A model generated the notes under the pieces. It made no database searches. It was not told the DNA's origin and saw nothing but the letters and a program-made list of their open reading frames with translations. DNA of 64,000 nucleotides from NCBI GenBank assembly GCA_004570425.1, contig SPQJ01000019.1:1-64000 (forward strand). Direction: 5' to 3'. Positions within the stretch are counted from its first letter, which is position 1. The number at the start of each line of letters is the position of its first letter. The stretch comes from Bacillus sp. AZ43. Lineage in GTDB: Bacteria; Actinomycetota; Actinomycetes; Mycobacteriales; Geodermatophilaceae. Of this stretch, positions 13,899 to 37,645 are shown in pieces. Position numbers and translations under genes: made by a program.

Positions 13899-13925
13899 GC
13901 TACCGGCGAGTAACCGCCCTACACT
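13899..13925 (+). promoter_or_regulatory. operator-like dyad and -10 box before the mutase gene
   Basis: GCTACCGGCGAGTAAC (13899-13914) matches the dyad seen before ccr (27275) with one change in each outer half-site. It sits just upstream of TACACT (13920-13925), which ends eight bases before the mutase ATG, so a bound protein would block the promoter. Similar dyads lie at 19921, 27275 and 37630. Confidence 0.5.
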
Positions 13926-13933
13926 CCGCCGGT

Positions 13934-15952
13934 ATGCCGTTCCCTTCATCGCCGAAGGAGCGCGACCGCCCCTGGGTCATGCGCACCTACGCCGGCCACT
14001 CCTCGCCGGCCGAGTCCAACGCTCTGTACCGGCGCAACCTCGCCAAGGGCCAGACCGGCCTCTCGGTTGCCTTCGACCTGCCGACGCAGACCGGCTACGA
14101 CCCCGACGACGAGCTCGCCGTCGGTGAGGTCGGCAAGGTCGGCGTGCCGATCAGCCACATCGGCGACATGCGCGCCCTGTTCGACGGCATCCCGCTCGAC
14201 GAGATGAACACGTCGATGACGATCAACGCCACCGCGATGTGGCTGCTCGCGCTCTACCAGGCGGTCGCCGAGGAGCACGGGCACGACGTCAGCAAGCTCG
14301 CCGGGACGACGCAGAACGACATCATCAAGGAATACCTGTCGCGGGGGACCTACGTCTTCCCGCCGGCTCCCTCGATGCGGCTGATCACCGACATGGTCGC
14401 CTACACGGTGACGACCATGCCGAAGTGGAACCCGATCAACATCTGCAGCTACCACCTGCAGGAGGCGGGGGCGACGCCGGAGCAGGAGATCGCCTACGCG
14501 ATCAGCACCGCCATCGCCGTCCTCGACTCGGTCCGCGACTCCGGGCAGGTGCCGCAGGAGAAGTTCGGCGAGGTCGTCGCGCGCATCTCCTTCTTCGTCA
14601 ACGCGGGTGTCCGCTTCGTCGAGGAGATGTGCAAGATGCGCGCCTTCACCCAGCTCTGGGACGAGCTGACCGCGGAGCGGTACGGCGTCGAGGACCCCAA
14701 GCACCGCCGCTTCCGCTACGGCGTGCAGGTCAACTCGCTCGGCCTGACCGAGGCCCAGCCGGAGAACAACGTCCAGCGGATCGTGCTGGAGATGCTCGCC
14801 GTCACGCTCTCCCGCGACGCCCGCGCCCGCGCCGTGCAGCTGCCGGCCTGGAACGAGGCGCTCGGGCTGCCCCGGCCATGGGACCAGCAGTGGTCGCTGC
14901 GCCTGCAGCAGGTGCTCGCCTACGAGACCGACCTGCTCGAGTACGAGGACCTGTTCACCGGGTCCGTGGTCGTCGAGAAGAAGGTCGCCGAGATCCTCGA
15001 GGGCGCGCGGGCCGAGATCGCCCGGGTGCAGGAGATGGGCGGGGCCGTCGCGGCCGTCGAGTCCGGCTACATGAAGGGCCAGCTGGTCGCCTCGCTGGCC
15101 GAGCGGCGCCGGAAGATGGAGAGCGGCGAGGACGTCGTCGTCGGCGTCAACAAGTTCGACAGCACCGAGCCCAACCCGCTCACCGCGGACCTCGACACCG
15201 CGATCATGGTCGTCGACCCGGCCGTGGAGGCCGCCGCCCAGGAGGCGGTGAAGAAGTGGCGCGCCGAGCGCGACCAGGCAGCCGCCGACAAGGCGCTGGA
15301 GGCGTTGCGCGAGGCCGCCAGCAGCGACGTGAACCTCATGGCCGCGACCCTCGACTGCGCCCGCGCAGGCGTGACGACGGGTGAGTGGGCGGGGGTGCTC
15401 CGCGAGGTGTTCGGCGAGTACCGCGCACCGACCGGGGTCTCGGCGGCCACCGGCGGCGGCGAGGCCGACGAGACGCTGGCCGAGGTCCGCGAGCGGGTGC
15501 GGGCCACCGGTGAGGACCTCGGCGGCCGGCTGCGGTTCCTGGTCGGCAAGCCCGGCCTGGACGGGCACTCCAACGGTGCCGAGCAGATCGCCGTCCGCGC
15601 CCGGGACGCCGGCTTCGAGGTCATCTACCAGGGCATCCGGCTGACGCCGTCGCAGATCGTCTCGGCGGCCGTGGAGGAGGACGTCCACGTCGTCGGCCTG
15701 TCGGTGCTGTCCGGCTCGCACCTGCAGGTGGTGCCGGCGGTGCTCCAGGGCCTCAAGGACGCCGGCCTGGACGACGTCCCGGTGGTCGTCGGCGGGATCA
15801 TCCCGGACAGCGACGCCCGCCGGCTCCGCGAGCAGGGCGTGGCCCGGGTCTTCACGCCCAAGGACTTCGGGCTGACCGAGATCATGGGGCAGGTCGTGGA
15901 CGTGATCCGCGAGGCCAACGGTCTGGACGAGAAAGTGCCCGCCCCGGCCTGA
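13934..15952 (+). CDS. meaA: B12-dependent acyl-CoA mutase, ethylmalonyl-CoA mutase type (MeaA)
   Basis: A 672-residue single-chain mutase with an N-terminal (beta/alpha)8 substrate domain and a C-terminal B12 domain. The cobalt-ligand motif is DGHSNG with His545, and the lower-axial region LSVLSGSHL and VVVGGIIP are clear. Relative to methylmalonyl-CoA mutase, Tyr19 (Y89) and Arg137 (R207) are kept, so the substrate should carry a free carboxylate. Thr18 replaces Gln and Gly138 follows the Arg. The short N-terminus starting at RPWVMRTYAGHS is typical of Ecm/MeaA. Ccr, an epimerase and MeaB nearby support ethylmalonyl-CoA as substrate. Methylmalonyl-CoA activity cannot be excluded. Confidence 0.88.
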   Translation: MPFPSSPKERDRPWVMRTYAGHSSPAESNALYRRNLAKGQTGLSVAFDLPTQTGYDPDDELAVGEVGKVGVPISHIGDMRALFDGIPLDEMNTSMTINATAMWLLALYQAVAEEHGHDVSKLAGTTQNDIIKEYLSRGTYVFPPAPSMRLITDMVAYTVTTMPKWNPINICSYHLQEAGATPEQEIAYAISTAIAVLDSVRDSGQVPQEKFGEVVARISFFVNAGVRFVEEMCKMRAFTQLWDELTAERYGVEDPKHRRFRYGVQVNSLGLTEAQPENNVQRIVLEMLAVTLSRDARARAVQLPAWNEALGLPRPWDQQWSLRLQQVLAYETDLLEYEDLFTGSVVVEKKVAEILEGARAEIARVQEMGGAVAAVESGYMKGQLVASLAERRRKMESGEDVVVGVNKFDSTEPNPLTADLDTAIMVVDPAVEAAAQEAVKKWRAERDQAAADKALEALREAASSDVNLMAATLDCARAGVTTGEWAGVLREVFGEYRAPTGVSAATGGGEADETLAEVRERVRATGEDLGGRLRFLVGKPGLDGHSNGAEQIAVRARDAGFEVIYQGIRLTPSQIVSAAVEEDVHVVGLSVLSGSHLQVVPAVLQGLKDAGLDDVPVVVGGIIPDSDARRLREQGVARVFTPKDFGLTEIMGQVVDVIREANGLDEKVPAPA

Positions 15953-15959
15953 GGATGGG

Positions 15960-15965
15960 TAGCGT
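15960..15965 (+). promoter_or_regulatory. -10 box (TAGCGT) before the crotonase-like gene
   Basis: TAGCGT begins eight bases after the mutase stop and ends six bases before ATG 15972. It suggests the crotonase-like gene has its own leaderless transcript in addition to readthrough. Confidence 0.45.
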
Positions 15966-15971
15966 CGGCCC

Positions 15972-16742
15972 ATGGCTGACGGTGCTCCCCGGGTCGAGCG
16001 CGACGGCGACGTCGTCCGCATCACGATGGTGCGGGCGGCGCGCCGCAACGCGCTCTCCCGGGAGCACCTGACCCAGCTGCTGGCCGCCGTGACGGAGGCC
16101 GGGGAGAGCGATGCCGCCGGCATCGTGCTCGCCGGCGAGGGGCCGGTGTTCAGCGCCGGGCACGACTTCGCCGACGTCGCCGGGAAGCCGGTGACCGAGG
16201 TGCGCAGCCTGCTGCGGCTGTGCACCGACCTGATGCAGGCGATCCAGGACGTGCCCCAGGTCGTCCTCGCCCGGGTGCACGCCCTGGCCACCGCAGCAGG
16301 CTGCCAGCTCGTCGCCTCCTGCGACCTCGCGGTCGCCGCCGAGTCGGCCGGCTTCGCCGCCCCCGGCGGCAAGGGTGGCTGGTTCTGCCACACGCCGATG
16401 GTCGCGATCGCGCGCAACGTCGGGCGCAAGCGCGCCATGGAGCTCGCCCTGACCGGCGACGTCATCGACGCGCGGACGGCGCTGGACTGGGGCCTGGTCA
16501 ACCGCGTGGTGCCCGACGACCAGCTCGACGCCGCCGTCGACGAGCTCATGGCCCGCGCCACCCGTGGCTCCCGGGCGAGCAAGGCGTGGGGCAAGCAGAC
16601 GATGTACGCCCAGCTGGACCGGCCCGAGCGCGACGCCTACGCCACCGCGATCGAGGTCATGGCGTCGGCCAGCCAGCTGCCCGGCGCGGTCGAGGGGATG
16701 GCGTCGTTCCTGGAGAAGCGCCCGCCCGTCTGGCCCGACTGA
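15972..16742 (+). CDS. enoyl-CoA hydratase/isomerase family protein with altered catalytic residues (ECHDC3-like)
   Basis: A 256-residue crotonase-fold protein. The oxyanion-hole region GHDFADV and the second strand motif are recognisable, but the two glutamates of true hydratases are missing: the first position is Gln112 (AAGCQLVASCDLA) and the second, 20 residues on, is Gly132 (FAAPGGKGGWFCH). That resembles the ECHDC3 branch, whose reaction is uncertain. It follows the mutase gene by 19 bases, so an acyl-CoA role is likely, but crotonase activity should not be assumed. Confidence 0.8.
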   Translation: MADGAPRVERDGDVVRITMVRAARRNALSREHLTQLLAAVTEAGESDAAGIVLAGEGPVFSAGHDFADVAGKPVTEVRSLLRLCTDLMQAIQDVPQVVLARVHALATAAGCQLVASCDLAVAAESAGFAAPGGKGGWFCHTPMVAIARNVGRKRAMELALTGDVIDARTALDWGLVNRVVPDDQLDAAVDELMARATRGSRASKAWGKQTMYAQLDRPERDAYATAIEVMASASQLPGAVEGMASFLEKRPPVWPD

Positions 16743-16932
16743 GCCACGGACGAGTGAACCCGAGCACAGCCGGAATGGCCCCGCGCCCGTTCGGCATTGA
16801 CCCTGCCGTGCAGAACCTGTGGGGGCTCACGCGTCGGCGTGCCCTGGACTTCGGACGGATGACGACCGCCGGCTGTTGACGCCGGCCGCTCCGTCGTCCC
16901 GTCCTGATCTCCCCCCGAAAGGCCCTCTCCTC

Positions 16933-18291
16933 GTGCTCGCACGTCTCCGCCGCGTCCCGTTCGCGGCACAGGTGCTCCTCGCCCTCGTCGTGGGCGTGGC
17001 CCTCGGCCTCCTCGCCCGTGAGATGGGCACCGTCTCCGACGGCTCGCCCAACTGGCTCACCAGCACCCTCCAGACCATCGGTGGCACCTTCGTCACGCTG
17101 CTCAAGGCGCTGGTCCCGCCGCTGATCGTCACGGCGGTCATCGTCAGCATCGCCAACCTCAAGCAGGTCTCCAACGCCGCCCGCCTCGCCGGGCAGACCC
17201 TCCTGTGGTTCGCGATCACCGCGCTGATCGCCGTCGGCATCGGCATCGGCCTGGGGCTGCTCACCGAGCCGGGTCGCAACAGCTCGGTCGACGCCGCCGC
17301 CCAGACCGACCCGGGCACCACCGGCTCCTGGTGGGACTTCCTCAACGGCATCGTGCCGGGCAACATCCTCGGTCTGCAGGCGTCGGCCGGGAGTGACGGA
17401 TCGGTCGGGCTGTCGTTCAACGTCCTGCAGCTGATCGTCATCTCCGCCGCCATCGGCATCGCGGCGCTCAAGGTGGGCGAGGCGGCCGAGCCGTTCCTGG
17501 GCTTCGTCCGCTCCGCGCTGGCGATCGTCCAGAAGGTGCTGTGGTGGGTCATCCTGCTCGCGCCGCTGGGCACCGTCGGCCTGATCGGCAACGCGGTCGC
17601 CAGCTACGGCTGGGGGTCGCTCGGCTCGCTCGGCGTCTTCGCCGGCGCGGTGTACGGCGGTCTGGCCCTGGTGCTGTTCGTCGTCTACCCGGTGCTCCTG
17701 CGCCTGCACGGCCTCTCGCCGCTGCGGTGGTTCGCGGGCGCCTGGCCGGCCATCCAGCTGGCCTTCGTCTCCCGGTCGTCGATCGGCACCCTGCCGGTGA
17801 CCGAGCGGGTGACCGAGCAGAACCTCGGCGTCCCGCGGTCCTACGCCTCGTTCGCCGTGCCGCTGGGCGCGACGACCAAGATGGACGGCTGCGCCGCGAT
17901 CTACCCGGCGCTGGCCGCGATCTTCGTGGCCCAGTTCTTCGGCGTGGACCTGTCGGTCACCGACTACCTGCTGATCGCGCTCGTGTCGGTCATCGGCTCG
18001 GCCGCCACCGCCGGCGTCACCGGCGCGGTGGTCATGCTGACCCTCACGCTGTCGACCCTCGGTCTGCCGCTGGCCGGTGTGGGCCTGCTGCTGGCGATCG
18101 ACCCGATCCTGGACATGGGCCGCACCGCGGTGAACGTCGCCGGCCAGGCGCTGGTGCCGACGATCGTGGCCAAGCGCGAGGGCATCCTCGACATCGAGCG
18201 CTACCGGTCGACCTCCACGGTCGACCCGCTGGCCAGGGTCGAGGAGCGCGGCGGCGTCGACGCCGACCTGCGCGAGCCCGCCACCGTCTGA
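16933..18291 (+). CDS. DAACS-family dicarboxylate/acidic amino acid symporter
   Basis: A 452-residue membrane transporter with the two re-entrant hairpins of the GltPh/DctA fold. HP1 carries SSIGTLP, the unwound TM7 reads [10 protein letters not shown], and TM8 reads [16 protein letters not shown]. Asp394 and Arg397, which in GltPh hold the amino and side-chain carboxylate groups, are present, favouring glutamate/aspartate. The Na+-site residues differ: Lys316 replaces the TM7 Asn and Gln405 replaces the TM8 Asp. GTG 16933 follows AAAGG. In the 190 bases upstream I see no clear promoter. A 16-base hairpin ends the gene. Confidence 0.87.
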
Positions 18292-18302
18292 GCCGGAGCC
18301 GA

Positions 18303-18337
18303 ACGGCCCGGTCCCCCCCGCGGGGGGACCGGGCCGT
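18303..18337. terminator. bidirectional hairpin terminator
   Basis: A perfect 16-base stem (18303-18318 with 18322-18337) with a three-base loop lies between the convergent symporter and lipoprotein genes, so it can serve both strands. There is no U-tract. Confidence 0.85.
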
Positions 18338-18344
18338 CGTCGTC

Positions 18345-19181
18345 TCAACCGGTGAGGTCGGCGCAGCCCGTCTCGTCGGGGAGCAGCGGCCGGAGGGTGA
18401 CCGACCAGCGGGCGCCGTCACCGGTCACCCAGGGTGTCGCGGCGTTCGCCTCCCGGGCCGCGGCGAGCACCGCCCGCGCCTCCTCCCCGGTCGCCGTCAC
18501 GCAGGTGACGTCGGGCGGCCCGCCGGTCGGCTCGCCCGGCAGCGCCGGCCCCGGCCAGGCCGCCTCCGCCTGGACCAGGCCGTCGCCGGGATCGACCCAC
18601 GGGGTCGCGATCGCCGCCACCGCCGCCGGCTCGTAGGCCGTGGTGTCCTGCGCCGGTTCGGTGAGGGACGTCAGGAGTTCGCTCAGCTCACCCCGAGCCG
18701 CCTCCTGCTCCCCGGTCAGGCCGCCGGCCCCCACGCCCTCCCACAGCGCGTAGACCTCCCGGACGTACGTCCTCCCGGTGGTGACGACGGTGAAGCGGGT
18801 GGACGTCGCGTCGGCGATCGGCGGCGTCCCCAGGTCGCCGGTCCCGGCCACCCCGGCGTCCAGGGCCCGGTCGACCATGGCCTGCACGTCGGCCGTCGCG
18901 ATCTCGGCGACCTGCACGTTGGGCAGCGCGGGGCCCGGGTAGATCGCCGCCACCGGCCCCTCGGTGATCACCCGGCCGTCGGCGTAGACGCTGATCATCG
19001 GCAGCCGCGCGACCAGCGACGACGGCGTCACGAAGCCGCCCGTCTGCTCCACCCGGAGGACCAGTCCGTCGGTGGCGGCGGCCTCGGACGACGGGGGAGC
19101 GCCCGGCGGCCCACCGGTGCTGCCGCGCTCCGCGCAGCCCGCCAGCCCGAGCACCAGGAGCGCGGCGGTGGCCGCCCGCAT
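18345..19181 (-). CDS. hypothetical lipoprotein
   Basis: A 278-residue exported protein with a short signal peptide ending in the lipobox LGLAGC, so it should be anchored to the outer face of the membrane. The mature part starts with a Gly/Ser/Pro linker and has no domain I recognise; a C-terminal pair of cysteines (DVTCVTA, ETGCADL) may form a disulfide. GGAGGGG lies about ten bases before ATG 19181 but only one base before ATG 19190, so the former is preferred. It diverges from nucS. Confidence 0.75.
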
Positions 19182-19233
19182 GATCGTCATGCCCCTCCGA
19201 CGACGGGAGCGCGAGCGGGGTTCCCGCGCCCGG

Positions 19234-19239
19234 TAGCGT
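19234..19239 (+). promoter_or_regulatory. -10 box (TAGCGT) before nucS
   Basis: TAGCGT ends eight bases before the nucS GTG, consistent with a leaderless or near-leaderless message. The 66-base gap must also hold the divergent lipoprotein promoter. Confidence 0.4.
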
Positions 19240-19247
19240 CGGCCCCC

Positions 19248-19919
19248 GTGCGTCTGGTCATCGCCCGCTGCTCCGTCGATTACATCGGGCGGCTCACCGC
19301 CCACCTGCCGATGGCGACCCGGCTCCTGCTGGTCAAGGCCGACGGCTCGGTGTCGGTGCACGCCGACGACCGGGCCTACAAGCCGCTGAACTGGATGAGC
19401 CCGCCGTGCACGCTCAAGGAGGAGCTGACCGACGGCTCGGGCACCTGGACGGTGACCAACAAGGCCGGCGAGCAGCTCATCATCACCATCGAGTCGGTCG
19501 ACCACGACCACGCCCAGGAGCTCGGCGTCGACCCCGGCCTGCAGAAGGACGGCGTGGAGGCCGAGCTGCAGCGGCTGCTCGCGCTGCACGTGGAGACGTT
19601 CGGCGAGGGCTGGTCGCTCGTCCGCCGCGAGTACCCGACCGCCATCGGGCCGGTCGACCTGCTCTGCCGCGACGCCTCGGGCGCCGTCGTCGCCGTGGAG
19701 ATCAAGCGGCGGGGCGAGATCGACGGCGTCGAGCAGCTGACCCGCTACCTGGAGCTGCTCAACCGCGATCCGCTGCTGGCCCCCGTCAAGGGCGTGTTCG
19801 CCGCGCAGGAGATCAAGCCGCAGGCGCGGGTTCTCGCCCAGGACCGCGGCATCGACTGCGTCACCGTCGACTACGCCGTCCTCAAGGGCACGGACGACCC
19901 GACCCAGCGCCTGTTCTGA
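19248..19919 (+). CDS. nucS: mismatch-specific endonuclease NucS/EndoMS
   Basis: NucS (223 residues) cuts both strands at mismatches and supports non-canonical mismatch repair in actinobacteria that lack MutS/MutL. The N-terminal DNA-binding domain starts [16 protein letters not shown], and the RecB-like nuclease domain has Asp137 (GPVDLL), Glu151 and Lys153 (VEIKRRG), with the same spacing as the catalytic D-E-K of Pyrococcus NucS. Many such proteins contact the sliding clamp through their C-terminus, and the last residues DDPTQRLF fit that. It occupies the position of Rv1321. Confidence 0.95.
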
Positions 19920-19920
19920 A

Positions 19921-19936
19921 GTTACCTACGGGTAGC
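19921..19936. promoter_or_regulatory. operator-like dyad before 3-hydroxybutyryl-CoA dehydrogenase
   Basis: GTTACCTACGGGTAGC begins two bases after the nucS stop and about 70 bases before the dehydrogenase GTG. Left half GTTACC and right half GGTAGC differ from a perfect dyad by one base. A separate 8-base inverted repeat with a 3-base loop (19957-19975, CGGGTGAG/CTCACCCG) lies in the leader and may be a second site or an RNA hairpin. Confidence 0.5.
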
Positions 19937-20005: not shown

Positions 20006-21787
20006 GTGGCCAGGGAACTGAACGAGGTCGGCGTCGTGGGGCTGGGCACCATGGGTGCCGGCATCGCGGAGGTGCTCGCGCGGGCGGGCCTGTCGGTCAC
20101 CGCCGTCGAGGTGACCGAGGAGGCGCTGGCGCGCGGCCGTGGCCACGTCGAGCAGTCCACCGACCGCGCCGTGAGCCGCGGCAAGCTGGACCCCGCCGAC
20201 CGGGACGCGATCTTCGAGCGGATCCGGTTCAGCACGTCGCTGGAGGACCTCGCGAACGCCGAGCTGGTCATCGAGGCCGTGCCGGAGCGCATGGAGCTCA
20301 AGGCCGAGGTCTTCGCCCAGCTGGACAAGATCTGCGCGCCGGACACCATCCTGGCGACCAACACCTCGAGCCTGTCGGTCACCGAGCTCTCGGTGGTCAC
20401 CGGCCGGCCGAGCAAGGTCATCGGCATGCACTTCTTCAACCCCGCGCCGGTCATGAAGCTGGTCGAGGTGGTGCAGACCGTCGTCACCGAGCCCTCCGTG
20501 GTGGAGGACGTCGAGGCGCTGGCCGAGCGGCTGGGCAAGGTCGACGTCACCATCGGCGACCGCGCGGGCTTCATCGCCAACGCGCTGCTGTTCGGCTACC
20601 TCAACCACGCGGTCTCGATGTTCGAGAACCGCTACGCCTCGCGCGAGGACATCGACGCGGCCATGCGGCTGGGCTGCGGCCTGCCGATGGGCCCGCTCGC
20701 GCTCATGGACCTCATCGGCATCGACACCGCCTACGAGATCCTCGACACGATGTACAAGCAGTCGCGCAACCGGCTGCACGCCCCCAGCCCGATCATCAAG
20801 CAGATGATGACCGCCGGGCTGCTGGGCCGGAAGTCCGGCCGCGGCTTCTACACGTACGCCGAGCCCGGCTCGGCGGAGGTCGTCGCGGACGCGCAGACCC
20901 CGACCCCGGGCGGCGCGGCCGAGGGGGCCCGCGAGGTGCGGACCGTCGGCGTCGTCGGCTCGGGCACGATGGCCACCGGCATCATCGAGGTCGTCGCCAA
21001 GGGCGGCTACGACGTCGTCTTCGTCGCCCGCGCGGCCGAGAAGGTCGAGGCGGTGCACAAGGCGCTCGCCAAGTCGCTGGAGAAGCAGGTCCAGCGCGGC
21101 CGGCTCGAGGAGGCGGCGCGCGACGAGATCCTCGGCCGGATCACCGGCACGACGTCGCTGGACGACCTCGCCGACCGCGACCTGGTCATCGAGGCCGTCG
21201 TCGAGTCGCTGCCGGTCAAGGAGGCGCTGTTCGCCAACCTCGGCGAGATCGCCAAGCCCGGCGCGGTGCTGGCCACGACCACCTCCAGCCTCCCGGTGAT
21301 CGAGTGCGCCAAGGCCAGCGGCCGTCCGGCCGACGTGGTGGGCATGCACTTCTTCAACCCGGCCCAGGTCATGAAGCTCGTCGAGGTCGTCTCCACGATC
21401 TCCACGGCGCCCGACGTGGCCGCCACCATCCACGCCGTCTCGGCGCAGCTGAAGAAGCACCCCGTCTCCTGCACCGACCGCGCCGGCTTCATCGTCAACG
21501 CGCTGCTCTTCCCGTACCTGAACGACGCGGTGAAGATGCTCGAGGCGCACTACGCGACCGCCGACGACATCGACGCCGCGATGAAGGTCGGCTGCGGCTA
21601 CCCGATGGGGCCCTTCGAGCTGCTGGACGTCGTCGGGCTCGACGTCTCCCTCGCCATCGAGCGGGAGCTCTACACCGAGTTCCGCGAGCCGGGCTTCGCG
21701 CCCGCCCCGCTGCTCGAGCACCTGGTCACCGCCGGCTACCTCGGCCGCAAGACCGGCCGGGGCTTCCGGGACTACGCCACCCGCTGA
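20006..21787 (+). CDS. tandem (duplicated) 3-hydroxybutyryl-CoA dehydrogenase
   Basis: A 593-residue protein made of two complete dehydrogenase units of about 290 residues. Each has a Rossmann nucleotide motif (GLGTMGAG in the first, GSGTMATG in the second), a substrate serine region (NTSSLSV; TTSSLPV), the catalytic HFFNP motif and a C-terminal domain starting near DRAGF. It should reduce acetoacetyl-CoA to 3-hydroxybutyryl-CoA, or the reverse. Since the second unit lacks one Rossmann glycine, the halves may differ in cofactor affinity. GTG 20006 is ten bases after GGAGG. The dyad at 19921 links it to ccr and the mutase. Confidence 0.88.
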   Translation: MARELNEVGVVGLGTMGAGIAEVLARAGLSVTAVEVTEEALARGRGHVEQSTDRAVSRGKLDPADRDAIFERIRFSTSLEDLANAELVIEAVPERMELKAEVFAQLDKICAPDTILATNTSSLSVTELSVVTGRPSKVIGMHFFNPAPVMKLVEVVQTVVTEPSVVEDVEALAERLGKVDVTIGDRAGFIANALLFGYLNHAVSMFENRYASREDIDAAMRLGCGLPMGPLALMDLIGIDTAYEILDTMYKQSRNRLHAPSPIIKQMMTAGLLGRKSGRGFYTYAEPGSAEVVADAQTPTPGGAAEGAREVRTVGVVGSGTMATGIIEVVAKGGYDVVFVARAAEKVEAVHKALAKSLEKQVQRGRLEEAARDEILGRITGTTSLDDLADRDLVIEAVVESLPVKEALFANLGEIAKPGAVLATTTSSLPVIECAKASGRPADVVGMHFFNPAQVMKLVEVVSTISTAPDVAATIHAVSAQLKKHPVSCTDRAGFIVNALLFPYLNDAVKMLEAHYATADDIDAAMKVGCGYPMGPFELLDVVGLDVSLAIERELYTEFREPGFAPAPLLEHLVTAGYLGRKTGRGFRDYATR

Positions 21788-21808: not shown

Positions 21809-21846
21809 CGGCCCGGTTCACGACCGTCCGGTCGTGAACCGGGCCG
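21809..21846. terminator. perfect 18-base hairpin after the dehydrogenase
   Basis: A 38-base palindrome (arms 21809-21826 and 21829-21846, two central bases) begins 22 bases after the dehydrogenase stop. It should fold into a very stable hairpin and end the transcript. It lies inside the longest open frame of the next gene, which argues for a later start there. Confidence 0.8.
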
Positions 21847-21886: not shown

Positions 21887-22096
21887 GTGGTCCGCCCCCT
21901 CACCGGGTCGTCGACCGGCAAGACCTACCGCTGCCCGGGCTGCGACCAGGAGATCCGCCCGGGGACCCCGCACCTCGTGACGTGGCCGGCGTACGCCCGG
22001 GACTCCGACCTCGACCCGTGGGACACCGAGTCGGCCGCCGACCTGCGCCGGCACTGGCACGCCACCTGCTGGCGGGCCCGCGCCCGCCGCCGCTAG
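21887..22096 (+). CDS. small zinc-ribbon-like conserved protein
   Basis: A short protein (69 residues from GTG 21887) with CPGCDQEIRPGTPH, a Trp/Tyr-rich middle and a C-terminal RRHWHATCWR. The CxxC pair plus the distant His/Cys could bind one zinc. The frame is open from GTG 21791, but that start would put the strong hairpin at 21809-21846 inside the gene, so I prefer the internal GTG. Neither start has a good ribosome site. It overlaps the end of the BenE gene by four bases, tail to tail. Function unknown. Confidence 0.55.
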   Translation: MVRPLTGSSTGKTYRCPGCDQEIRPGTPHLVTWPAYARDSDLDPWDTESAADLRRHWHATCWRARARRR

Positions 22097-25887: not shown

Positions 25888-27219
25888 TCAGACCCCGCGG
25901 AAGCGGTTGATCGCGTCGATGTGCTTCTCGCGCTTCTCGGCGTCCTTGACGCCGAGACCTTCCTCGGGGGAGAGGGTCAGCACGCCGACCTTGCCCTGGT
26001 GGGCGTTCTTGTGGACGTCGAGGGCGGCCTGGCCGACCTCCTCCATCGGGTACACCTTCGACAGGGTCGGGTGGATGAGCCCCTTGTCGATGAGCCGGTT
26101 GGCCTCCCACGCCTCCTTGTAGTTGGCGAAGTGCGAGCTCAGGATCTTCTTGAGGTTCATCCAGAGGTACCGGTTGTCGTACTGGTGCAGGTAGCCGGTG
26201 GTGGAGGCGCAGGTGACGACCGTGCCGCCCTTCTTGGCGACGTAGACGCTGGCGCCGAAGGTCTCGCGGCCGGGGTGCTCGAAGACGATGTCGACGTCCT
26301 CGCCACCGGTCAGCTCACGGATCTTCTTGCCCAGGCGCTGCCACTCCTTGGGGTCCTGGGTGTTCTCGTCCTTCCAGAACTTGTACTGCTCGGCGGAGCG
26401 GTCGATGACCAGTTCCGCGCCCATCTTGCGGACGATCTCGGCCTTCTCCGGGCTGCTGACGACGCACACCGGGATCGCGCCGCCGTTGAGGGCCATCTGG
26501 GTGGCGTAGGAGCCCAGCCCGCCGGAGGCGCCCCAGATGAGGACGGTGTCGCCCTGCTTCATCGCCGCGCCGTTCTTGCTGACCAGCTGGCGGTAGGCGG
26601 TGGAGTTGACCAGGCCGGGCGCGGCGGCCTCCTCCCAGGAGAGGTGCGCCGGCTTCGGCATGAGCTGGTTGCTCTTGACCAGCGCCATCTCGGCGAGGCC
26701 GCCGAAGTTGGTCTCGAAGCCCCAGATCCGCTGCTGCGGGTCCATCATCGTGTCGTCGTGGCCGGCCGGATCCTCGAGCTCCACGGAGAGGCAGTGCGCG
26801 ACGACCTCGTCGCCGGGCTTCCACTTGTTCACGCCCGGGCCCACGCGCAGGACGACGCCGGCGAGGTCGGAGCCCACGATGTGGTACGGCAGGTCGTGGC
26901 GCTTGGTCAGCTCGGAGACCCGGCCGTAGCGCTCCAGGAAGCCGAAGGTCGAGACCGGCTCGAAGATCGACGTCCAGACGGTGTTGTAGTTCACCGAGGA
27001 GGCCATGACGGCGACGATCGCCTCACCCGGCCCCAGCTCGGGGGTGGCGACCTCCTGCACGTGCAGCGACTTGCGGGGGTCCTTCTCCTTGGTGGCCATG
27101 CCCTGGAACATGTCCTGCTCGTCCTTGCGCACCACGACGGCGCGGTAGGACTCCGGCACGGCCAGACCCCCCACGGCGTCCAGCTGGTCGGCGAGGATGG
27201 CGTCCCTGATCTCGTTCAC
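25888..27219 (-). CDS. ccr: crotonyl-CoA carboxylase/reductase
   Basis: Ccr (443 residues) reduces crotonyl-CoA with NADPH and fixes CO2, giving ethylmalonyl-CoA. It is an MDR-family enzyme with the cofactor motif WGASGGLGSYA. The four residues described as the CO2 pocket of enoyl-CoA carboxylases/reductases (N81, F170, E171, H365 in the Kitasatospora enzyme) have counterparts at a constant offset of two: Asn79, Phe168, Glu169 and His363. GTG 27219 has CAGGAG seven bases upstream. A perfect GTTACC/GGTAAC dyad lies 56 bases upstream. Two mutases, an epimerase and a thiolase nearby support the ethylmalonyl-CoA pathway. Confidence 0.96.
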   Translation of the reverse strand: MNEIRDAILADQLDAVGGLAVPESYRAVVVRKDEQDMFQGMATKEKDPRKSLHVQEVATPELGPGEAIVAVMASSVNYNTVWTSIFEPVSTFGFLERYGRVSELTKRHDLPYHIVGSDLAGVVLRVGPGVNKWKPGDEVVAHCLSVELEDPAGHDDTMMDPQQRIWGFETNFGGLAEMALVKSNQLMPKPAHLSWEEAAAPGLVNSTAYRQLVSKNGAAMKQGDTVLIWGASGGLGSYATQMALNGGAIPVCVVSSPEKAEIVRKMGAELVIDRSAEQYKFWKDENTQDPKEWQRLGKKIRELTGGEDVDIVFEHPGRETFGASVYVAKKGGTVVTCASTTGYLHQYDNRYLWMNLKKILSSHFANYKEAWEANRLIDKGLIHPTLSKVYPMEEVGQAALDVHKNAHQGKVGVLTLSPEEGLGVKDAEKREKHIDAINRFRGV

Positions 27220-27274
27220 GCGAACTCCTGGGTCTTCGTCGGCTCGGAGGCGTCGGCGGTGCGGGTGGCGCGAT

Positions 27275-27290
27275 GTTACCGATGGGTAAC
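27275..27290. promoter_or_regulatory. perfect 6+4+6 operator dyad before ccr
   Basis: GTTACCGATGGGTAAC is a perfect inverted repeat of GTTACC around four bases. On the minus strand its right end runs into TAACAT, a possible -10 box, which would put the start of transcription near 27268 and a 49-base leader before ccr. A bound dimer would cover the promoter. Related dyads lie at 13899, 19921 and 37630. Confidence 0.6.
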
Positions 27291-31657: not shown

Positions 31658-31731
31658 CCCGCGCACGCGCCGGTTGACAGCGCGGGGCGGCCGCGGTCAG
31701 GTACGGGGACGCCGCGGAGCTGGGGGGAACA

Positions 31732-32769
31732 GTGCGCGCACGCGATCCGAGACGATGCATCCTGCCGCCGAACGTGCTCGACCGGCTGGCCCGCTCCGAC
31801 GATCCGGACGTGCGGCGGGCGGCGCTGGACGCGCTCTCGCACGACGTCCGCTTCCGCATCGCGCGGGCCGAGGCGGCGTCCCGCGCGGGCGGACGGCTCG
31901 CGCCGGTGGTCACCTTCGCCCGCATCGGCGGGAAGCCCAACCGGACGATCTACGACCAGCAGCACGCGACGACGCAGACCCTGGGCGTCGTCGTCCGCGC
32001 GGAGGGCCAGCCCGACACGGGGGACGTCGCGGTGACCGAGGCCTACGACGGGCTGGGTGCCACCTACGACCTCTACTGGAGCGAGTTCCAGCGCGACTCG
32101 ATCGACGGGCAGGGCCGCACGCTGCACGGCTGCGTGCACTACGGGCAGGACTACGCCAACGCCTTCTGGGACGGCCGCGCGATGTGGTTCGGCGACGGCG
32201 ACGGCCGCATGCTGCTGCGGACGACCCAGGGCCTCGACGTCATCGGCCACGAGCTCACCCACGGCGTCGTCCAGTTCGAGGCCAACCTCGTCTACTCGGG
32301 GATGTCCGGCGCGCTGAACGAGTCCATCTCCGACGCCTTCGGGATCATGGTCAAGCAGCGGGCGCTCGGCCAGGACGTGACGACGTCGGACTGGCTGATC
32401 GGCGCCGACATCGTCGGCCCGGCGCTGCCGGGGGCGCTGCGGTCGATGAAGGAGCCGGGCACCGCCAACCCGGCCGACGAGCAGCCCGCCGACATGGACG
32501 GCTACCTGCCCGACGGCGACGTGCACCTCAACTCGGGCATCCCGAACAAGGCGTTCCACGTGCTCGCCACGACCCTCGGCGGCCGGGCGTGGGACGCGGC
32601 GGGCCCGATCTGGTACGGCGCGCTGCGGGACGCGCGGTTGAGCCCGACCGCCACGTTCACCGACTTCGCGCGGCTGAACCTGCTGTTCGCGCAGTCGACC
32701 TACGGGCACACCAGCACGGAGGCCGACGCGGTCCGGGGTTCGTGGGACGCGGTGAAGGTGCCACTCTGA
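31732..32769 (+). CDS. M4-family (protealysin-like) zinc metalloprotease
   Basis: A 345-residue thermolysin-family protease. Zinc ligands are His173 and His177 in HELTH and Glu197 in NESISDAFG, exactly 24 residues after the first His as in thermolysin; Glu174 is the general base. The calcium-site region is present, and SGIPNKAFHVL holds the catalytic-domain Asn/His segment. There is no signal peptide; the roughly 50-residue N-terminal piece starting CILPPNVLDRL resembles the short propeptide of protealysin. The GTG follows GGGGGGAAC. The next gene encodes a predicted inhibitor. Confidence 0.92.
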   Translation: MRARDPRRCILPPNVLDRLARSDDPDVRRAALDALSHDVRFRIARAEAASRAGGRLAPVVTFARIGGKPNRTIYDQQHATTQTLGVVVRAEGQPDTGDVAVTEAYDGLGATYDLYWSEFQRDSIDGQGRTLHGCVHYGQDYANAFWDGRAMWFGDGDGRMLLRTTQGLDVIGHELTHGVVQFEANLVYSGMSGALNESISDAFGIMVKQRALGQDVTTSDWLIGADIVGPALPGALRSMKEPGTANPADEQPADMDGYLPDGDVHLNSGIPNKAFHVLATTLGGRAWDAAGPIWYGALRDARLSPTATFTDFARLNLLFAQSTYGHTSTEADAVRGSWDAVKVPL

Positions 32770-32773
32770 CCGG

Positions 32774-33082
32774 GTGCGCATCCGGGTTCGCCGCGTGGGC
32801 GGCATCGCAGGCAACGTGGCGCTGGCCGCCGAGCTCGAGACGTCGGGGCTGCCCTCGCCCGACGCGTCGCGGTTGGAGGCCGCGGTCACCGGGCTGCCGT
32901 GGGGAGGGGGCGACGTCGCCCCGGCCCGTCCCGACGCGTTCCGCTACGAGGTGGACCTGCCCGACGAGCCGGGCCGGGGGACGGCGGTGCTCGACGAGAC
33001 CGGGCTCGAGGGCGACCTCGCGCCGCTGCGCAGCCACCTGCAGCAGAACGGGACGGTCGAGCCCGCCCGGCGGCGCGGGTGA
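32774..33082 (+). CDS. emfourin-like protease inhibitor
   Basis: A 102-residue protein starting four bases after the M4 protease stop. Its pattern (MRIRVRRVGGIAGN..., a central PDAFRYEVDL strand, a C-terminal LRSHLQQ helix) fits emfourin, the small proteinaceous inhibitor found next to protealysin-like genes. It should bind and block the neighbouring protease in the cytoplasm before or after release. The family call rests on position plus recognisable pattern. Confidence 0.75.
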   Translation: MRIRVRRVGGIAGNVALAAELETSGLPSPDASRLEAAVTGLPWGGGDVAPARPDAFRYEVDLPDEPGRGTAVLDETGLEGDLAPLRSHLQQNGTVEPARRRG

Positions 33083-33104
33083 CCGCGCCGCCGCGCGGAC
33101 CGGG

Positions 33105-33614
33105 TCAGGCGATGCGGCGGGCGAAGGAGTAGCCCTCCATGTCGACGCTGCGCTGCGAGACGCCGGTCGACTCGTTGCCGGCGTCGACCATCTGACCGTC
33201 GCCGACGTAGATGCCGACGTGGCTCACCGGCTCGTAGAAGAAGACGAGGTCGCCGGGCAGCAGCTGGTCTCGGGAGACCGGGGTGCCCATCTCGGACTGG
33301 CTGCGGCTGGAGTGCGGCAGCTCGATGCCGGCGGCGCGGTAGGCGTACTGGGTCAGCCCGGAGCAGTCGAAGGTGTCCGGGCCCGCGCCGCCGTACTCGT
33401 AGGCCTTGCCGACCTGGGCGCGTGCGGTGTCGACGGCGGTCTGCGCGGCCGCGGAGGGCGCGGCGGTCGAGGAGGCGGCCGGCGCGGGAGCCGGCTCGGC
33501 CGCCACGGCGGCGCCGGGGGCCAGGCCGATCGCCAGCGAGGCGGCGGCCCCGGTGAGGAGCCCGGCGCCGAGGCGGCGGGTGCGGAGTCGGGAGTTCGGG
33601 CGAGTGGTCACCAT
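33105..33614 (-). CDS. secreted NlpC/P60 peptidoglycan endopeptidase
   Basis: A 169-residue exported hydrolase. A basic N-terminus with twin Arg, a hydrophobic stretch and an AVAAEP cleavage region make a signal peptide; a short Ala/Pro linker leads to an NlpC/P60 domain. The catalytic Cys is Cys84 in DTFDCSGL, the His is in SHVGIYVGDG, and the third polar residue is probably the Asn of VDAGN. Such enzymes cut peptide stems of peptidoglycan. ATG 33614 has AGGAGAG upstream. It is convergent with the emfourin gene. Confidence 0.9.
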   Translation of the reverse strand: MVTTRPNSRLRTRRLGAGLLTGAAASLAIGLAPGAAVAAEPAPAPAASSTAAPSAAAQTAVDTARAQVGKAYEYGGAGPDTFDCSGLTQYAYRAAGIELPHSSRSQSEMGTPVSRDQLLPGDLVFFYEPVSHVGIYVGDGQMVDAGNESTGVSQRSVDMEGYSFARRIA

Positions 33615-33789
33615 GCGGTGGCTCTCCTTCCGTTCGCCCGCCGCGGCGCGCGGCACACCGCTGACGAGGGGCGTGGGAGCGCGGTTCGCTCGCCGGGCGG
33701 GCCCTGTCGGGCGCACCGCTCCGGGGCCGCGGCGGTACCGGTCCCGGGGCCACCCTCGTCGGGCGGCGACCACCCGGCCGGCGTCATCG

Positions 33790-33861
33790 ACCGTACGAAG
33801 GGCGTGCGGCGACCACAACCGCGGGATCGACATGTCGCCACGTCGACGAGCTGACATGTCG
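33790..33861 (-). promoter_or_regulatory. promoter and twin palindromes in the 326-base gap before the NlpC/P60 gene
   Basis: On the minus strand, TTGTGG (33813-33818) and TACGGT (33790-33795) are 17 bases apart, a plausible promoter. It would leave a GC-rich leader of about 165 bases before the ATG. Just upstream of the -35 lie two copies of GACATGTC: CGACATGTCG (33828-33837) is a perfect palindrome, and TGACATGTCG (33852-33861) has one mismatch. Their centres are 24 bases apart. The position suggests an activator. I see no gene in the rest of the gap (33615-33940). Confidence 0.4.
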
Positions 33862-33940
33862 CGCCAGCAGCGGGAATACGGGCGGCGTTGTGGACCGGGT
33901 CACACCGAGATGCGGCGGAGGCCGCCTACGACTGCGCCCG

Positions 33941-34831
33941 TTACCGGATCAGTGCTGATCTCGATGCCAGGACGCGCTCGATCCGGGACAGGAGGAGATC
34001 CGGCCGGTGCAGGTCGGCCGCGGTGACGAAGACGACGAGCCAGCCCGCCGCCGTCAGCCGGTTCAGCCGTCTCCGGTCGCGGCCGAACTGGCCCGGCTCC
34101 CCGTGCCACGCGCCGTCGTACTCGAGCGCGACACGCAGTTCCGGCCAGGCGAAGTCGACGCGAGCGATCTCGCGGCCACCGTCCCGGATGCGGCACTGGG
34201 CGACGGGGTCGGGCAGCGCCGACCGGTGGAGCAGGAGACGGAGCCGGGTCTCCTGAGGCGACTCGGCCAGCCCGTCCGCGAGCCGGGTCACGGCTCTGAT
34301 GTGCCGGCAGTCCCGGCCGGTCAGGTCGTCGGCGGCCGCGCGCACCTCGTCGAGGAAGACGAACCCAGGCAGCAGGAACCTGTCGAGAGCGACTACCGCC
34401 TCGTCGCGCGGCCGGATCCGGCAGAGGTCGAGGGCGGTGCGCAGGGCGCTCGTGCACCGGACGCCCCGGCGTCCGGTGACTTCGTCAGGCAGCAGGGCCC
34501 GTCGGTTGAGGGTCAGGCCGGACCGGGAGCTCGCACCGGCGCCCGGAAGGACGGTGCAGTCGACCGGATCGTCGACGTCGGCCAGGTCGACGCCCCAGAG
34601 GACCGCCGCCGTGCGGCCACTCGCGACCGCACCCGGGATGAGAAGCGCCGCCGCCTCGGCGCGCAGCTCGTGGGTGACGGGCAGGGACGCGCAGGCGTAG
34701 ACGTCGGGGAACAGCCGACGCCACGCCGTGCTCTGCAGCTGGTGACGGGTGAGCTGCCCGGTCCGGACCGCCCGCGAGCCGCGGAAGACGGAGGCTCGCA
34801 ACTCGGCAGGGCGATGAGGACGTCGTGGCAC
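33941..34831 (-). CDS. AbiEi-like N-terminus with DUF559 (Vsr-like) endonuclease domain
   Basis: A 296-residue protein of a type numerous in soil actinobacteria. The N-terminal half (LTRHQLQSTAWRRLFPDVYA..., ASGRTAAVLWGV) resembles the AbiEi-type helix-turn-helix region. The C-terminal half has the DUF559 core: RVDFAWPELRVALEYDGAWH, then RDRRRLNRLTAAGWLVVFVT. The core resembles very-short-patch-repair nucleases, with Asp/Glu residues that could bind metal. No toxin partner is adjacent, so a toxin-antitoxin role is not supported. The GTG start is the first in frame. Confidence 0.7.
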   Translation of the reverse strand: MPRRPHRPAELRASVFRGSRAVRTGQLTRHQLQSTAWRRLFPDVYACASLPVTHELRAEAAALLIPGAVASGRTAAVLWGVDLADVDDPVDCTVLPGAGASSRSGLTLNRRALLPDEVTGRRGVRCTSALRTALDLCRIRPRDEAVVALDRFLLPGFVFLDEVRAAADDLTGRDCRHIRAVTRLADGLAESPQETRLRLLLHRSALPDPVAQCRIRDGGREIARVDFAWPELRVALEYDGAWHGEPGQFGRDRRRLNRLTAAGWLVVFVTAADLHRPDLLLSRIERVLASRSALIR

Positions 34832-34962
34832 CGGGGCACGATCGCCGATCTGGCTCGGCGGCGTGCCGGTCGTCCACAGGACCCCATCGAGAAGCGAGCC
34901 AGACCGGTATCCCGGTCGGGTGACACCGGTCCCTCACTGATCTCGGCGCATTCCGGCGCCGG

Positions 34963-34968
34963 TAGCGT
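34963..34968 (+). promoter_or_regulatory. -10 box (TAGCGT) before the MarR gene
   Basis: TAGCGT ends seven bases before ATG 34976, suggesting a leaderless message. It also argues that the long open frame upstream, antisense to the DUF559 gene, is not part of the regulator. Confidence 0.45.
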
Positions 34969-34975
34969 TCCGCGC

Positions 34976-35497
34976 ATGGTCCGACCGCTGGGGCTGCCCT
35001 TCGACCCCATCGAGCGGGCCGCCCAGACCTGGGAGCAGCGCTTCGGCCCCGCCTCGGCGATGCGCGCCGCGACGAGCGTCTTCCGGGTCCAGCAGATCCT
35101 GCTCGCCCGCTTCGACGAGGTGCTCAAGCCGCACGCGCTGACCTTCGCCCGGTACGAGGTGCTGGTGCTGCTCACGTTCAGCCGCGCCGGCGAGCTGCCG
35201 CTCAAGGTCATCGGCAGCCGCCTGATGGTGCATCCGACCAGCGTCACCAACGCGATCGACCGGCTGGTGGCGGCCGGGTACGTGCGCCGGCGTCCCAACC
35301 CCGACGACGGTCGCGGCGTCCTGGCCGGCATCACCGATGCGGGCCGGGCGGTGGTCGAGGTCGCGACGACGGCGCTCACCGACCTCGACTTCGGCCTCGC
35401 CGACCTCTCCGAGGACGAGCGGACGGCGCTCTTCGAGACGCTCCGCACGGTCCGCCTGGGCGCCGGCGACGTCCGGGACGCCACCCCGGGCGGATGA
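34976..35497 (+). CDS. MarR-family transcriptional regulator
   Basis: A 173-residue winged-helix regulator. The recognition segment is LPLKVIGSRLMVHPTSVTNAIDRLVAAGYV and the wing reads RRPNPDDGRGVLAGITDAG, the classic MarR Asp/Arg turn. It is 36 bases upstream of the isobutyryl-CoA mutase gene on the same strand, and a palindrome of the right size covers the promoter between them. Acyl-CoA or a related small molecule is a plausible ligand, but this is an inference. Confidence 0.9.
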   Translation: MVRPLGLPFDPIERAAQTWEQRFGPASAMRAATSVFRVQQILLARFDEVLKPHALTFARYEVLVLLTFSRAGELPLKVIGSRLMVHPTSVTNAIDRLVAAGYVRRRPNPDDGRGVLAGITDAGRAVVEVATTALTDLDFGLADLSEDERTALFETLRTVRLGAGDVRDATPGG

Positions 35498-35505
35498 TCG
35501 ACGGA

Positions 35506-35529
35506 AGATAGTTGGACGTCCTACTATCT
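35506..35529. promoter_or_regulatory. 24-base palindromic operator overlapping the icmA promoter
   Basis: Arms AGATAGTTGGA and TCCTACTATCT surround CG; 10 of 11 pairs match. The right arm contains TACTAT (35522-35527), which ends six bases before the icmA ATG and fits a -10 box of a leaderless message. A possible -35 (TCGACG) is 18 bases upstream of it. A repressor here, probably the adjacent MarR protein, would block transcription. Confidence 0.6.
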
Positions 35530-35533
35530 GGTC

Positions 35534-37213
35534 ATGGCACAGGACGCCGCCCAGCGGTGGCAGCAGCGGTACGACGCGGCGATGGCCACGGGCCTGGTCC
35601 GGGACGCCGACTTCACGACGCTGTCCGGCGTCGAGGTCGACCCCGTCTACGGGCCGGCCGACGAGAGCGCGGTCGAGAACTTCGAGCGCATCGGCTATCC
35701 CGGTGAGTTCCCGTTCACCCGCGGCCTGCACGCCACGGGCTACCGCGGCCGGGCGTGGACGATCCGCCAGTTCGCGGGCTTCGGGAACGCCCGGCAGACC
35801 AACGAGCGCTACCGGATGATCCTGGCCGAGGGCGGGGGAGGTCTCTCCGTCGCCTTCGACATGCCCACCCTCATGGGGCGCGACTCCGACGACCCCCGTG
35901 CGCTCGGCGAGGTCGGGCACTGCGGCGTCGCCATCGACAGCGCCGCCGACATGGACGTCCTGTTCGACGGCATCGACCTGGCGGCGACGACGACGTCGAT
36001 GACGATCAGCGGCCCCGCCGTCCCGGTGTTCTGCATGTACCTCGTGGCCGCCGAGCGCCAGGGTGCCGACGTCGGGACGCTCAACGGCACCCTGCAGACC
36101 GACATCTTCAAGGAGTACATCGCGCAGAAGGAGTGGCTCTTCGCCCCCGAGCCGCACCTGCGCCTGATCGGCGACCTCATGGAGTACTGCGCGGAGAACA
36201 TCCCCGCGTACAAGCCGATCTCCGTCTCCGGCTACCACATCCGCGAGGCCGGCTCCACCGCCGCGCAGGAGCTCGCCTACACGCTGGCCGACGGCTTCGC
36301 CTACGTGGAGCTGGGTCTCTCCCGCGGCCTGGACATCGAGAAGTTCGCGCCCGGCCTGTCCTTCTTCTTCGACGCGCACATCGACTTCTTCGAGGAGATC
36401 GCGAAGTTCCGTGCCGCTCGCCGGATCTGGGCCCGGTGGCTGCGCGACGTCTACGGGGCGACGACGGACAAGGCGCAGCAGCTTCGGTTCCACACGCAGA
36501 CCGCCGGGGTGTCGCTGACCGCCCAGCAGCCGGACAACAACATCGTCCGGACGGCGATCGAGGCGCTGTCCGCCGTTCTCGGCGGAACCCAGTCGCTGCA
36601 CACCAACGCCCTCGACGAGGTGCTGGCCCTGCCCAGTGCCAGGGCCGCGCAGATCGCGCTGCGCACCCAGCAGGTCATCGCCGAGGAGACCGGCGTCATG
36701 AACGTCGCCGACCCGCTGGGTGGCTCCTGGTACGTCGAGGCGCTCACCGACGAGCTCGAGCGGCAGGCCGAGGAGATCTTCGCCCGGATCCGCGACATGG
36801 GCGCCGACGGGACGATGACCAGCGGCATCCTCCGCGGCATCGAGGACGGCTGGTTCACCGGGGAGATCGCCGAGGCGGCCTTCGTCTACCAGCGCGCGCT
36901 GGAGAAGGGCGACAAGAAGGTCGTCGGCGTCAACACGCTGACCGGCACCGTGCAGGGCGAGGAGCCGCTGCAGATCCTGCGCGTGAGCCACGAGGTCGAG
37001 CGCGAGCAGAAGGCCGAGCTGGCGGCCCGTCGGCAGCGCCGGGACGACGCCGCCGCGCGGGCCGCCGTGGAGCGGATGGTGGCGGTGTCGCGCACGGAGC
37101 AGAACATGGTGCCGGCGATGCTCGACGCCGTCCGTGCCGAGGCCACCCTCGGCGAGATCTGCGACGCCCTCCGGGCCGAGTGGGGGAGCTACACCGAGCC
37201 CGCCCGGTTCTGA
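35534..37213 (+). CDS. icmA: isobutyryl-CoA mutase large subunit (IcmA type)
   Basis: A 559-residue mutase substrate subunit without a B12 domain, so it needs a separate small subunit that is not in the window. The two specificity residues of methylmalonyl-CoA mutase (Y89, R207) are Phe80 (WTIRQFAGF) and Gln198 (AQKEWLF), the same residues at the same numbers as in Streptomyces IcmA. This predicts isomerisation of isobutyryl-CoA and n-butyryl-CoA. The SGYH motif with the catalytic His and the [11 protein letters not shown] segment are present. A MarR gene and palindrome precede it. The 2-hydroxyisobutyryl-CoA mutase type has Ile at the first position, so is less likely. Confidence 0.88.
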
Positions 37214-37238
37214 CGTACCCCTGGGCCATGCTCCCGGC

Positions 37239-37598
37239 ATGGCTGACACGCACCGGCACCACGCCATCGACTACGTCGAGCTGACCGTCACCGACCTCGG
37301 ACGGGCGAAGCGCTTCTACGCCGAGGCCTTCGGCTGGGAGTTCACCGACTACGGCCCCGGGTACGCCGGCATCCGCGATGCCGACGGCGAGGTCGGCGGA
37401 CTCCGGCTCGACACGGAGCCGCCGAAGGCCGGAGGCCCGCTGGTGCTGCTGTTCTCGGCCGACCTCGACGGGACGGTCGCGTCGGTGGAGGCGGCCGGCG
37501 GCACGGTCACCGACGGCCCGTACGACTTCCCCGGCGGCCGTCGCTTCCACTTCCGCGACCCCAGCGGGAACCAGCTCGGCGCCTGGGGGCAGGCCTGA
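37239..37598 (+). CDS. VOC-family (glyoxalase-like) protein
   Basis: A 119-residue single VOC domain with the pattern YVELTVTDLGRAKRFYAEAFGWEFTDY in its first half and RRFHFRDPSGNQLGAW at its end. The Glu and His at metal positions are present, but the substrate cannot be told. ATG 37239 is chosen because the upstream part of the frame reads through the icmA tail. The gap to icmA is 25 bases, so the two may share a transcript. Confidence 0.8.
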   Translation: MADTHRHHAIDYVELTVTDLGRAKRFYAEAFGWEFTDYGPGYAGIRDADGEVGGLRLDTEPPKAGGPLVLLFSADLDGTVASVEAAGGTVTDGPYDFPGGRRFHFRDPSGNQLGAWGQA

Positions 37599-37629
37599 CG
37601 CCCGGGTTCTGACCTTTCTCGGTCCGTAA

Positions 37630-37645
37630 GTTACCGGCGCGTAAC
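37630..37645. promoter_or_regulatory. operator-like dyad before the penicillin acylase gene
   Basis: GTTACCGGCGCGTAAC has the left half GTTACC and right half CGTAAC, one mismatch from a perfect dyad, and shares its first 10 bases except for the second with the site before meaA. It is 54 bases before the acylase GTG. Confidence 0.45.

Follow-up and report, generated by a model that had tools for sequence, protein, structure and literature searches.

The closest described counterparts of the system reported here, a set of inverted-repeat dyads (GTTACC-N4-GGTAAC) in a 64,000-nucleotide stretch of Bacillus sp. AZ43 (contig SPQJ01000019.1, positions 1 to 64,000; the window), are regulators of acyl-coenzyme A (acyl-CoA) metabolism. 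FasR of Mycobacterium tuberculosis is a TetR-family sensor of long-chain acyl-CoA (PDB 6o6n, 6o6o and 6o6p) that, according to PMC7382501 and PMC7652896, activates fas-acpS, i.e. fatty acid synthesis; the former also describes its release from DNA by long-chain acyl-CoA. The mycobacterial protein FdmR (Rv0238) is, according to PMC12403877, a TetR repressor of fatty-acid degradation genes that responds to long-chain acyl-CoA. AccR of Streptomyces avermitilis, to be named together with BkaR and PccD, is a TetR protein that represses acyl-CoA metabolism; its palindrome is 16 bp long and its box reads GTTAA-N6-TTAAC (PMC10933834).

The dyads of Bacillus sp. AZ43 differ from the AccR box at position 5, which is C in 143/143 of the sites that we collected, and AccR and PccD were therefore rejected as the regulator. 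The regulon reported here is of the same kind as that of FdmR, whose published motif may be the same as ours; FdmR differs in that it has no close relative in this genome. RamB of Paracoccus denitrificans and CcrR of Methylobacterium are reportedly tied to the ethylmalonyl-CoA pathway; they belong to another phylum, and neither is known to control a beta-oxidation regulon. The described protein most like our candidate regulator is FasR. The sites mark a real, deeply conserved fatty-acid regulon that takes in genes of the ethylmalonyl-CoA pathway, a route of acetyl-CoA assimilation that also supplies polyketide building blocks. We consider it probable that a FasR-type TetR repressor, released by long acyl-CoA, controls this genome-wide regulon of fatty-acid catabolism.

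Four dyads in the window

A preliminary description of this stretch had reported four dyads, and we recovered all four, letter for letter: GCTACCGGCGAGTAAC (13899..13914) upstream of meaA, GTTACCTACGGGTAGC (19921..19936) upstream of hbd, GTTACCGATGGGTAAC (27275..27290) upstream of ccr and GTTACCGGCGCGTAAC (37630..37645) upstream of a penicillin-acylase-family gene, none being assigned to a strand. As described, the dyad at ccr is perfect, and the remaining three carry 1, 1 and 2 mismatches. Chance occurrence in the 64-kb window was estimated by expectation and by 100 dinucleotide shuffles. When at most 2 mismatches to GTTACC-N4-GGTAAC were allowed, 5 matches were found against 0.47 expected, and 0/100 shuffles reached 5; the match in addition to the four dyads, at 51550, was not tied to a target. 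Allowing up to 3 mismatches gave 11 matches against 7.5 expected, i.e. no excess over chance. The core YTACY-N4-RGTAR occurred 3 times against 0.01 expected, with the acylase-gene dyad falling outside it. A matrix scan of the whole window returned only the four dyads (all four are among the seeds of the matrix), in line with the earlier remark that the thiolase and epimerase genes of the window have no site.

The proposed identities of the four genes are backed by family or domain models above cut-off. Both the N- and C-domain models of acyl-CoA mutases match the product of meaA (13934..15952, + strand), an acyl-CoA mutase of the ethylmalonyl-CoA mutase type; the protein falls under the methylmalonyl-CoA-mutase equivalog cut-off, and the name meaA is an assignment made beyond the domain models. 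The tandem 3-hydroxybutyryl-CoA dehydrogenase encoded by hbd (20006..21787, + strand) passed the NF005875 and NF004474 subfamily cut-offs on the part tested. Crotonyl-CoA carboxylase/reductase, the product of ccr (25888..27219, − strand), reached 601.9 bits with the equivalog TIGR01751 (cut-off 378.55), and the secreted-looking penicillin-acylase-family protein (37700..40468, + strand) reached 178.1 bits with PF01804 (cut-off 21.3). Between dyad and start codon, as called here, lie 19 bp at meaA, 69 at hbd, 55 at ccr and 54 at the acylase gene.

Sites across the genome

Contig C16, to which the window belongs, comes from a 4.06-Mb genome that is 99.99% complete. With the reversed pattern in the same genome as control, GTTACC-N4-GGTAAC with up to two mismatches gave 36 sites against 13, and the strict form YTACY-N4-RGTAR gave 16 against 5. 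The strict sites were not scattered at random, since 11/16 lie upstream of fatty-acid or ethylmalonyl-CoA genes. Strict sites precede meaA, hbd, ccr and etfBA on C16, a fadA-like thiolase gene followed by a fadB-like gene (C5:81233), an Mce-type ABC/MlaE operon for lipid import (C12:71571), a malyl-CoA-lyase-like gene (C17:117527), which the preliminary description had suggested checking as a further target, and an etfD-like Fe-S protein gene (C54:121271); a fadE5-type acyl-CoA dehydrogenase gene has two (C54:148655 and 148678). The strict site of an AMP-binding, fadD-like gene (C14:37784) is weak, with a matrix score <11. The remaining 5 strict sites, equal in number to the control count, are on C2, C30, C39 and C53 (two). 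Outside the strict pattern stand the acylase site and a site upstream of an aldehyde dehydrogenase gene (C65:9833), and the weaker sites with two mismatches include some at unrelated loci, such as apparent ribosomal RNA (L011) and glutamine synthetase (L009). Methylsuccinyl-CoA dehydrogenase and mesaconyl-CoA hydratase were not identified among the targets, no search having been aimed at those genes.

Family models back the thiolase, acyl-CoA dehydrogenase, electron-transfer flavoprotein (ETF) beta, MlaE, ABC, AMP-binding and HpcH/HpaI assignments, and we take the names fadA, fadB, fadE5, etfD, Mce and malyl-CoA lyase from family knowledge. Beta-oxidation, electron-transfer and import genes share this element, exactly or nearly GYTACY-N4-RGTARC. 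The reading of the preliminary description, centred on the ethylmalonyl-CoA pathway, proved too narrow, as many of the targets serve fatty-acid breakdown in general.

Conservation of the sites

The matrix used to score sites in relatives drew on 18 sites from this genome and its relatives, a match being a score >12 at <=300 bp upstream; 30 loci per gene were taken from 61 genomes, and the reversed matrix and an in-gene stretch served as controls (each 0/30 for ccr, meaA, etfB and fadE5). The ccr site was kept in 29/30 loci (the miss is L104), 58-121 bp before the start, and the meaA site in 28/30 (absent from L133 and L134, a gene fragment), usually at a distance of 32-36 bp from the start and once at 49. 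At etfB, 29/30 loci had a site (miss L152), at 77-87 bp and twice at 122-125 bp. For fadE5, 29/30 loci had at least one site and 28 had two, with centres 22-26 bp apart. The hbd site was present in 8/9 relatives examined. The acylase gene lay within the fetched stretches of 4/9 relatives, and 3 of those 4 had the site. Together with the enrichment, these counts support the earlier proposal of one dimer-type operator common to unlinked genes.

Conservation extends beyond the family. In other families of the order, a fadE5 site was found in 19/19 fetched stretches holding fadE5 (two sites scoring >=14 in 12), an etfB site in 20/25 loci, a ccr site in 7/11 and a meaA site in 2/4; from these counts, sites at breakdown genes reach further than those at ethylmalonyl-CoA genes. 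The exact pattern outnumbered its reversed control in 55/61 relatives, equalled it in 3 and fell below it in 3 (288 vs 52 matches). Across a class sample of 158 genomes the corresponding numbers were 111, 20 and 27 (794 vs 309 matches, or 667 vs 303 minus three genomes with >=15 matches).

A FasR-type TetR protein as candidate regulator

The preliminary description had placed a TetR or GntR regulator outside the window; our candidate is indeed encoded outside the window, and the regulator is probably of the TetR family. Among 38 TetR-type matches in the genome, our candidate is encoded at C75:30108-30734 (− strand). Its N-terminal DNA-binding domain matches PF00440 at 62.3 bits (cut-off 24), and 100/199 residues (50%) are identical to M. 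tuberculosis FasR, including all of the stretch IADRAGVSKPVLYQHF through the recognition helix. Its best solved match is 6o6p (E-value 6.4e-59), the next different protein being 3f1b (1.3e-18). The protein was found in 59/61 genomes, and its closest named relatives are from Blastococcus (Geodermatophilaceae). A DUF3107 gene adjoins the candidate; we take Rv3208A to be the same neighbour in M. tuberculosis.

The DNA bound by FasR is also similar. PMC7382501 gives the 25-base DNA co-crystallised with FasR, at a resolution too low for detailed analysis of protein–DNA contacts. This 25-mer contains two 12-base windows that each have one mismatch to TACY-N4-RGTA, a likeness of sequence only; two such windows arose in 0.0165% of shuffles of the oligonucleotide. 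In addition, a variant site lies ~28 bp upstream of the FasR-type gene, in the strict form RACYCGYCRGTAAY in 41/80 named relatives and in a looser form, <=120 bp upstream, in 51/80 (reversed pattern, 0). Four Nocardioides loci have TACC-AGCG-GGTA at this position. Taken together, the likeness to FasR, the windows in the crystal DNA and the variant site of its own make the FasR-type TetR protein the most likely regulator on sequence grounds.

Dyads and predicted promoters

The preliminary description had noted that the dyads of meaA and ccr overlap or abut a −10 box, and this holds in relatives. At ccr and at etfB, the right half-site plus the next two bases reads TANNNT, a −10-like hexamer, in 29/29 sites each; at meaA, TANNNT starts 5 bp past the site in 22/28 relatives with a site. 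In the window, the likely −10 hexamers are TAACAT for ccr (27273..27278, − strand), formed by the dyad right half and the next two bases, and TACACT for meaA (13920..13925, + strand), 5 bp past the dyad. At fadE5 in this genome, the first site overlaps at its end with TAACGT, which lies ahead of the second site. No −10-like hexamer adjoins the sites of hbd and the acylase gene in this genome. Since the dyad lies over or beside a −10-like hexamer at ccr, etfB and meaA, a bound dimer would be expected to hinder polymerase, which suggests that the dyads work as repressor operators, probably as an off-switch.

A model of the regulon

We therefore put forward the following model, whose binder, direction of control and ligand we infer from these comparisons. 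The dyads (about GYTACYSRYSRGTARC) would be operators at which a TetR-type dimer represses fatty-acid catabolism across the genome, in a regulon spanning lipid import (the Mce-type operon) and activation (fadD, with its weak site), beta-oxidation (fadE5, fadA with the fadB-like gene behind it, and hbd) and electron transfer (etfBA and the etfD-like gene). In this family the regulon would add the ethylmalonyl-CoA route that assimilates acetyl-CoA (ccr, meaA and the malyl-CoA-lyase-like gene). A dimer on or beside the −10 box would block RNA polymerase; accumulated long-chain acyl-CoA would bind the regulator, which would then leave the DNA, so that import, oxidation and assimilation are switched on together. 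The FasR-type protein probably also binds the variant operator at its own promoter.

If this is true, the ethylmalonyl-CoA pathway is tied to a beta-oxidation operator, and a single signal governs both the use of fatty acids and the assimilation of carbon. The operator can be sought in other actinomycete genomes, and the FasR/FdmR division of labour in mycobacteria becomes testable in harmless soil bacteria. In a search that covered mainly open literature, we found no account that connects ccr or meaA with an operator of the FasR or FdmR type, and recognised none of the sequence itself or of a regulator of beta-oxidation that uses this motif.

Several observations weigh against a FasR-type repressor acting at these sites. 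FasR activates synthesis, whereas the targets here are breakdown and ethylmalonyl-CoA genes whose geometry suggests repression. The candidate misses the NCBIfam FasR equivalog NF053731 (253.7 vs 330 bits), and we therefore label it FasR-type and not FasR. Of the signal-transmission residues L98, F123 and F138 of FasR, the first and last are kept in the candidate, and F123, which matters for transmitting the signal, is Y (a PDB offset of 20 was assumed, consistent at all three positions). No FasR-type copy was detected in G020 (79% complete) or G046 (94%), yet each has an etfB or ccr site. The regulator's own site is degenerate, with a matrix score of 8.0 here and >11 in 15/30 relatives; its conserved end is TANNNT in 26/27, so it may be a promoter rather than an operator, and this line of argument is a weak one. 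The right-half hexamer occurs in only 4/57 fadE5 sites and is mostly missing from the hbd, acylase and malyl-CoA-lyase-like sites. Finally, the matrix seeds overlap in part with the sets scored for conservation.

Alternative explanations

The same regulon and operator could be served by another binder, i.e. an FdmR-like TetR protein, some other TetR or a regulator of another family, which we regard as rather unlikely. The two genomes that have sites without a detected FasR-type copy speak for it, as does the acyl-CoA-responsive repression of fatty-acid degradation genes by FdmR (PMC12403877). Locus L269 has a TetR gene after an lpqI-like gene, within the same 20 kb as a double-site fadE5 gene, and the stretch also holds htdX-like and fabG4-like genes. 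This gene order fits that of Rv0237-Rv0244c, and it is on this order that we take the L269 TetR to be the presumed FdmR orthologue. When compared with the TetR loci of our genome, however, the L269 TetR came closest to the FasR-type protein itself, at 27-30% identity. Furthermore, no strong site was found upstream of a TetR gene in the TetR loci scanned (sets of 30 and 37, from the TetR family only), the best scores beside TetR genes being 15.3 (L034, behind the TetR gene), 13.3 (L017) and 13.0 (L022).

Individual candidates were also rejected. The desaturase-linked TetR of L017 is absent from 10/61 genomes (G018, G021, G026, G028, G029, G031, G035, G039, G041 and G054), each of which has a ccr or etfB site. 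At L017 359-374 (C74), the related but different dyad GTTACGGGCACGTAGC lies upstream of the desaturase-like gene, which is followed by the TetR gene, and is perhaps that protein's own operator. The thiolase-linked TetR of L181 has a different palindrome and no matching site upstream of its gene; this gene stands between thiolase and acyl-CoA dehydrogenase genes, with GTACTCAGAGTAC upstream (~1085-1110, C23), and the protein is probably a separate fatty-acid or acyl-CoA regulator. No site was found in locus L043, which holds a TetR gene three genes before fadE5. A PadR gene beside the etfD-like gene occurs in this genome and in L054 and is not among the called genes of L058, L060, L069 and L071.

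Because the L269 TetR is closest to the FasR-type protein, the comparison suggests that in mycobacteria a single ancestral role was divided between FasR and FdmR. A wider form of this idea, which we offer tentatively, is that the FasR-type sensor was the ancestral master switch in much of the class, gating lipid import, beta-oxidation with its electron branch and, where present, the ethylmalonyl-CoA pathway. A mycobacterial duplication would then have given rise to an activator of synthesis, FasR, and a repressor of breakdown, FdmR, which use the same kind of operator.

That the bound protein activates its targets, as FasR does at mycobacterial fas-acpS, appears improbable. The hbd and acylase sites, which have no adjoining −10-like hexamer, would be compatible with activation. 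At ccr and etfB the sites sit on the hexamer, from which a bound dimer should exclude polymerase, and the close spacing at meaA points the same way.

A narrower scheme, in which the regulator is devoted to the ethylmalonyl-CoA pathway and short-chain CoA esters, would account for ccr, meaA, hbd and the malyl-CoA-lyase-like gene all being targets. We consider it very improbable: fadE5, fadA, etfBA, the etfD-like gene and the import genes share the site, and etfB and fadE5 sites are present in genomes where ccr and meaA were not found (such as G039, G043, G044, G054 and G057). From the latter, the ethylmalonyl-CoA genes look like recruits to a fatty-acid-breakdown regulon. Lastly, that the element is just part of a promoter, or due to chance, is scarcely credible. 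A −10-like hexamer is often formed by the right half, which speaks for this reading. Against it, all 143/143 collected sites have TAC in the left half (matrix selection favours TAC), at fadE5 and meaA the site and the hexamer mostly occupy different places, and the reversed controls are lower in this genome and in most relatives and class genomes, as given above.

Additional sites and repeats

Some sites lie at genes of other kinds. On C53, two strict sites 202 bp apart (21829-21842 and 22031-22044; L176 and L177) fall between two divergent genes, one encoding a PF11271 (PorA) protein and the other a glycosyltransferase-like protein; they may extend the regulon to the envelope or have arisen by chance. 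The site at C39:16986-16999 (L175) stands between a GT4-type glycosyltransferase gene and a divergent gene, and a site upstream of the same glycosyltransferase recurs in four relatives' loci (L061, L063, L064 and L068). At the acylase gene of the window, the off-palindrome right half of the dyad, GCGTAAC, recurs in G017 and G007 (L476 and L478); the enzyme might free fatty acids from N-acyl compounds, explaining its regulon membership. In the class sample, the exact pattern exceeded its control in G085 (93 vs 0), G098 (18 vs 1) and G068 (10 vs 1). Many of the listed matches are pairs of GTTACTGGTGAGTAGC and GCTACTCACCAGTAAC, 53 bp apart, and these pairs look like a dispersed repeat carrying an inverted operator pair.

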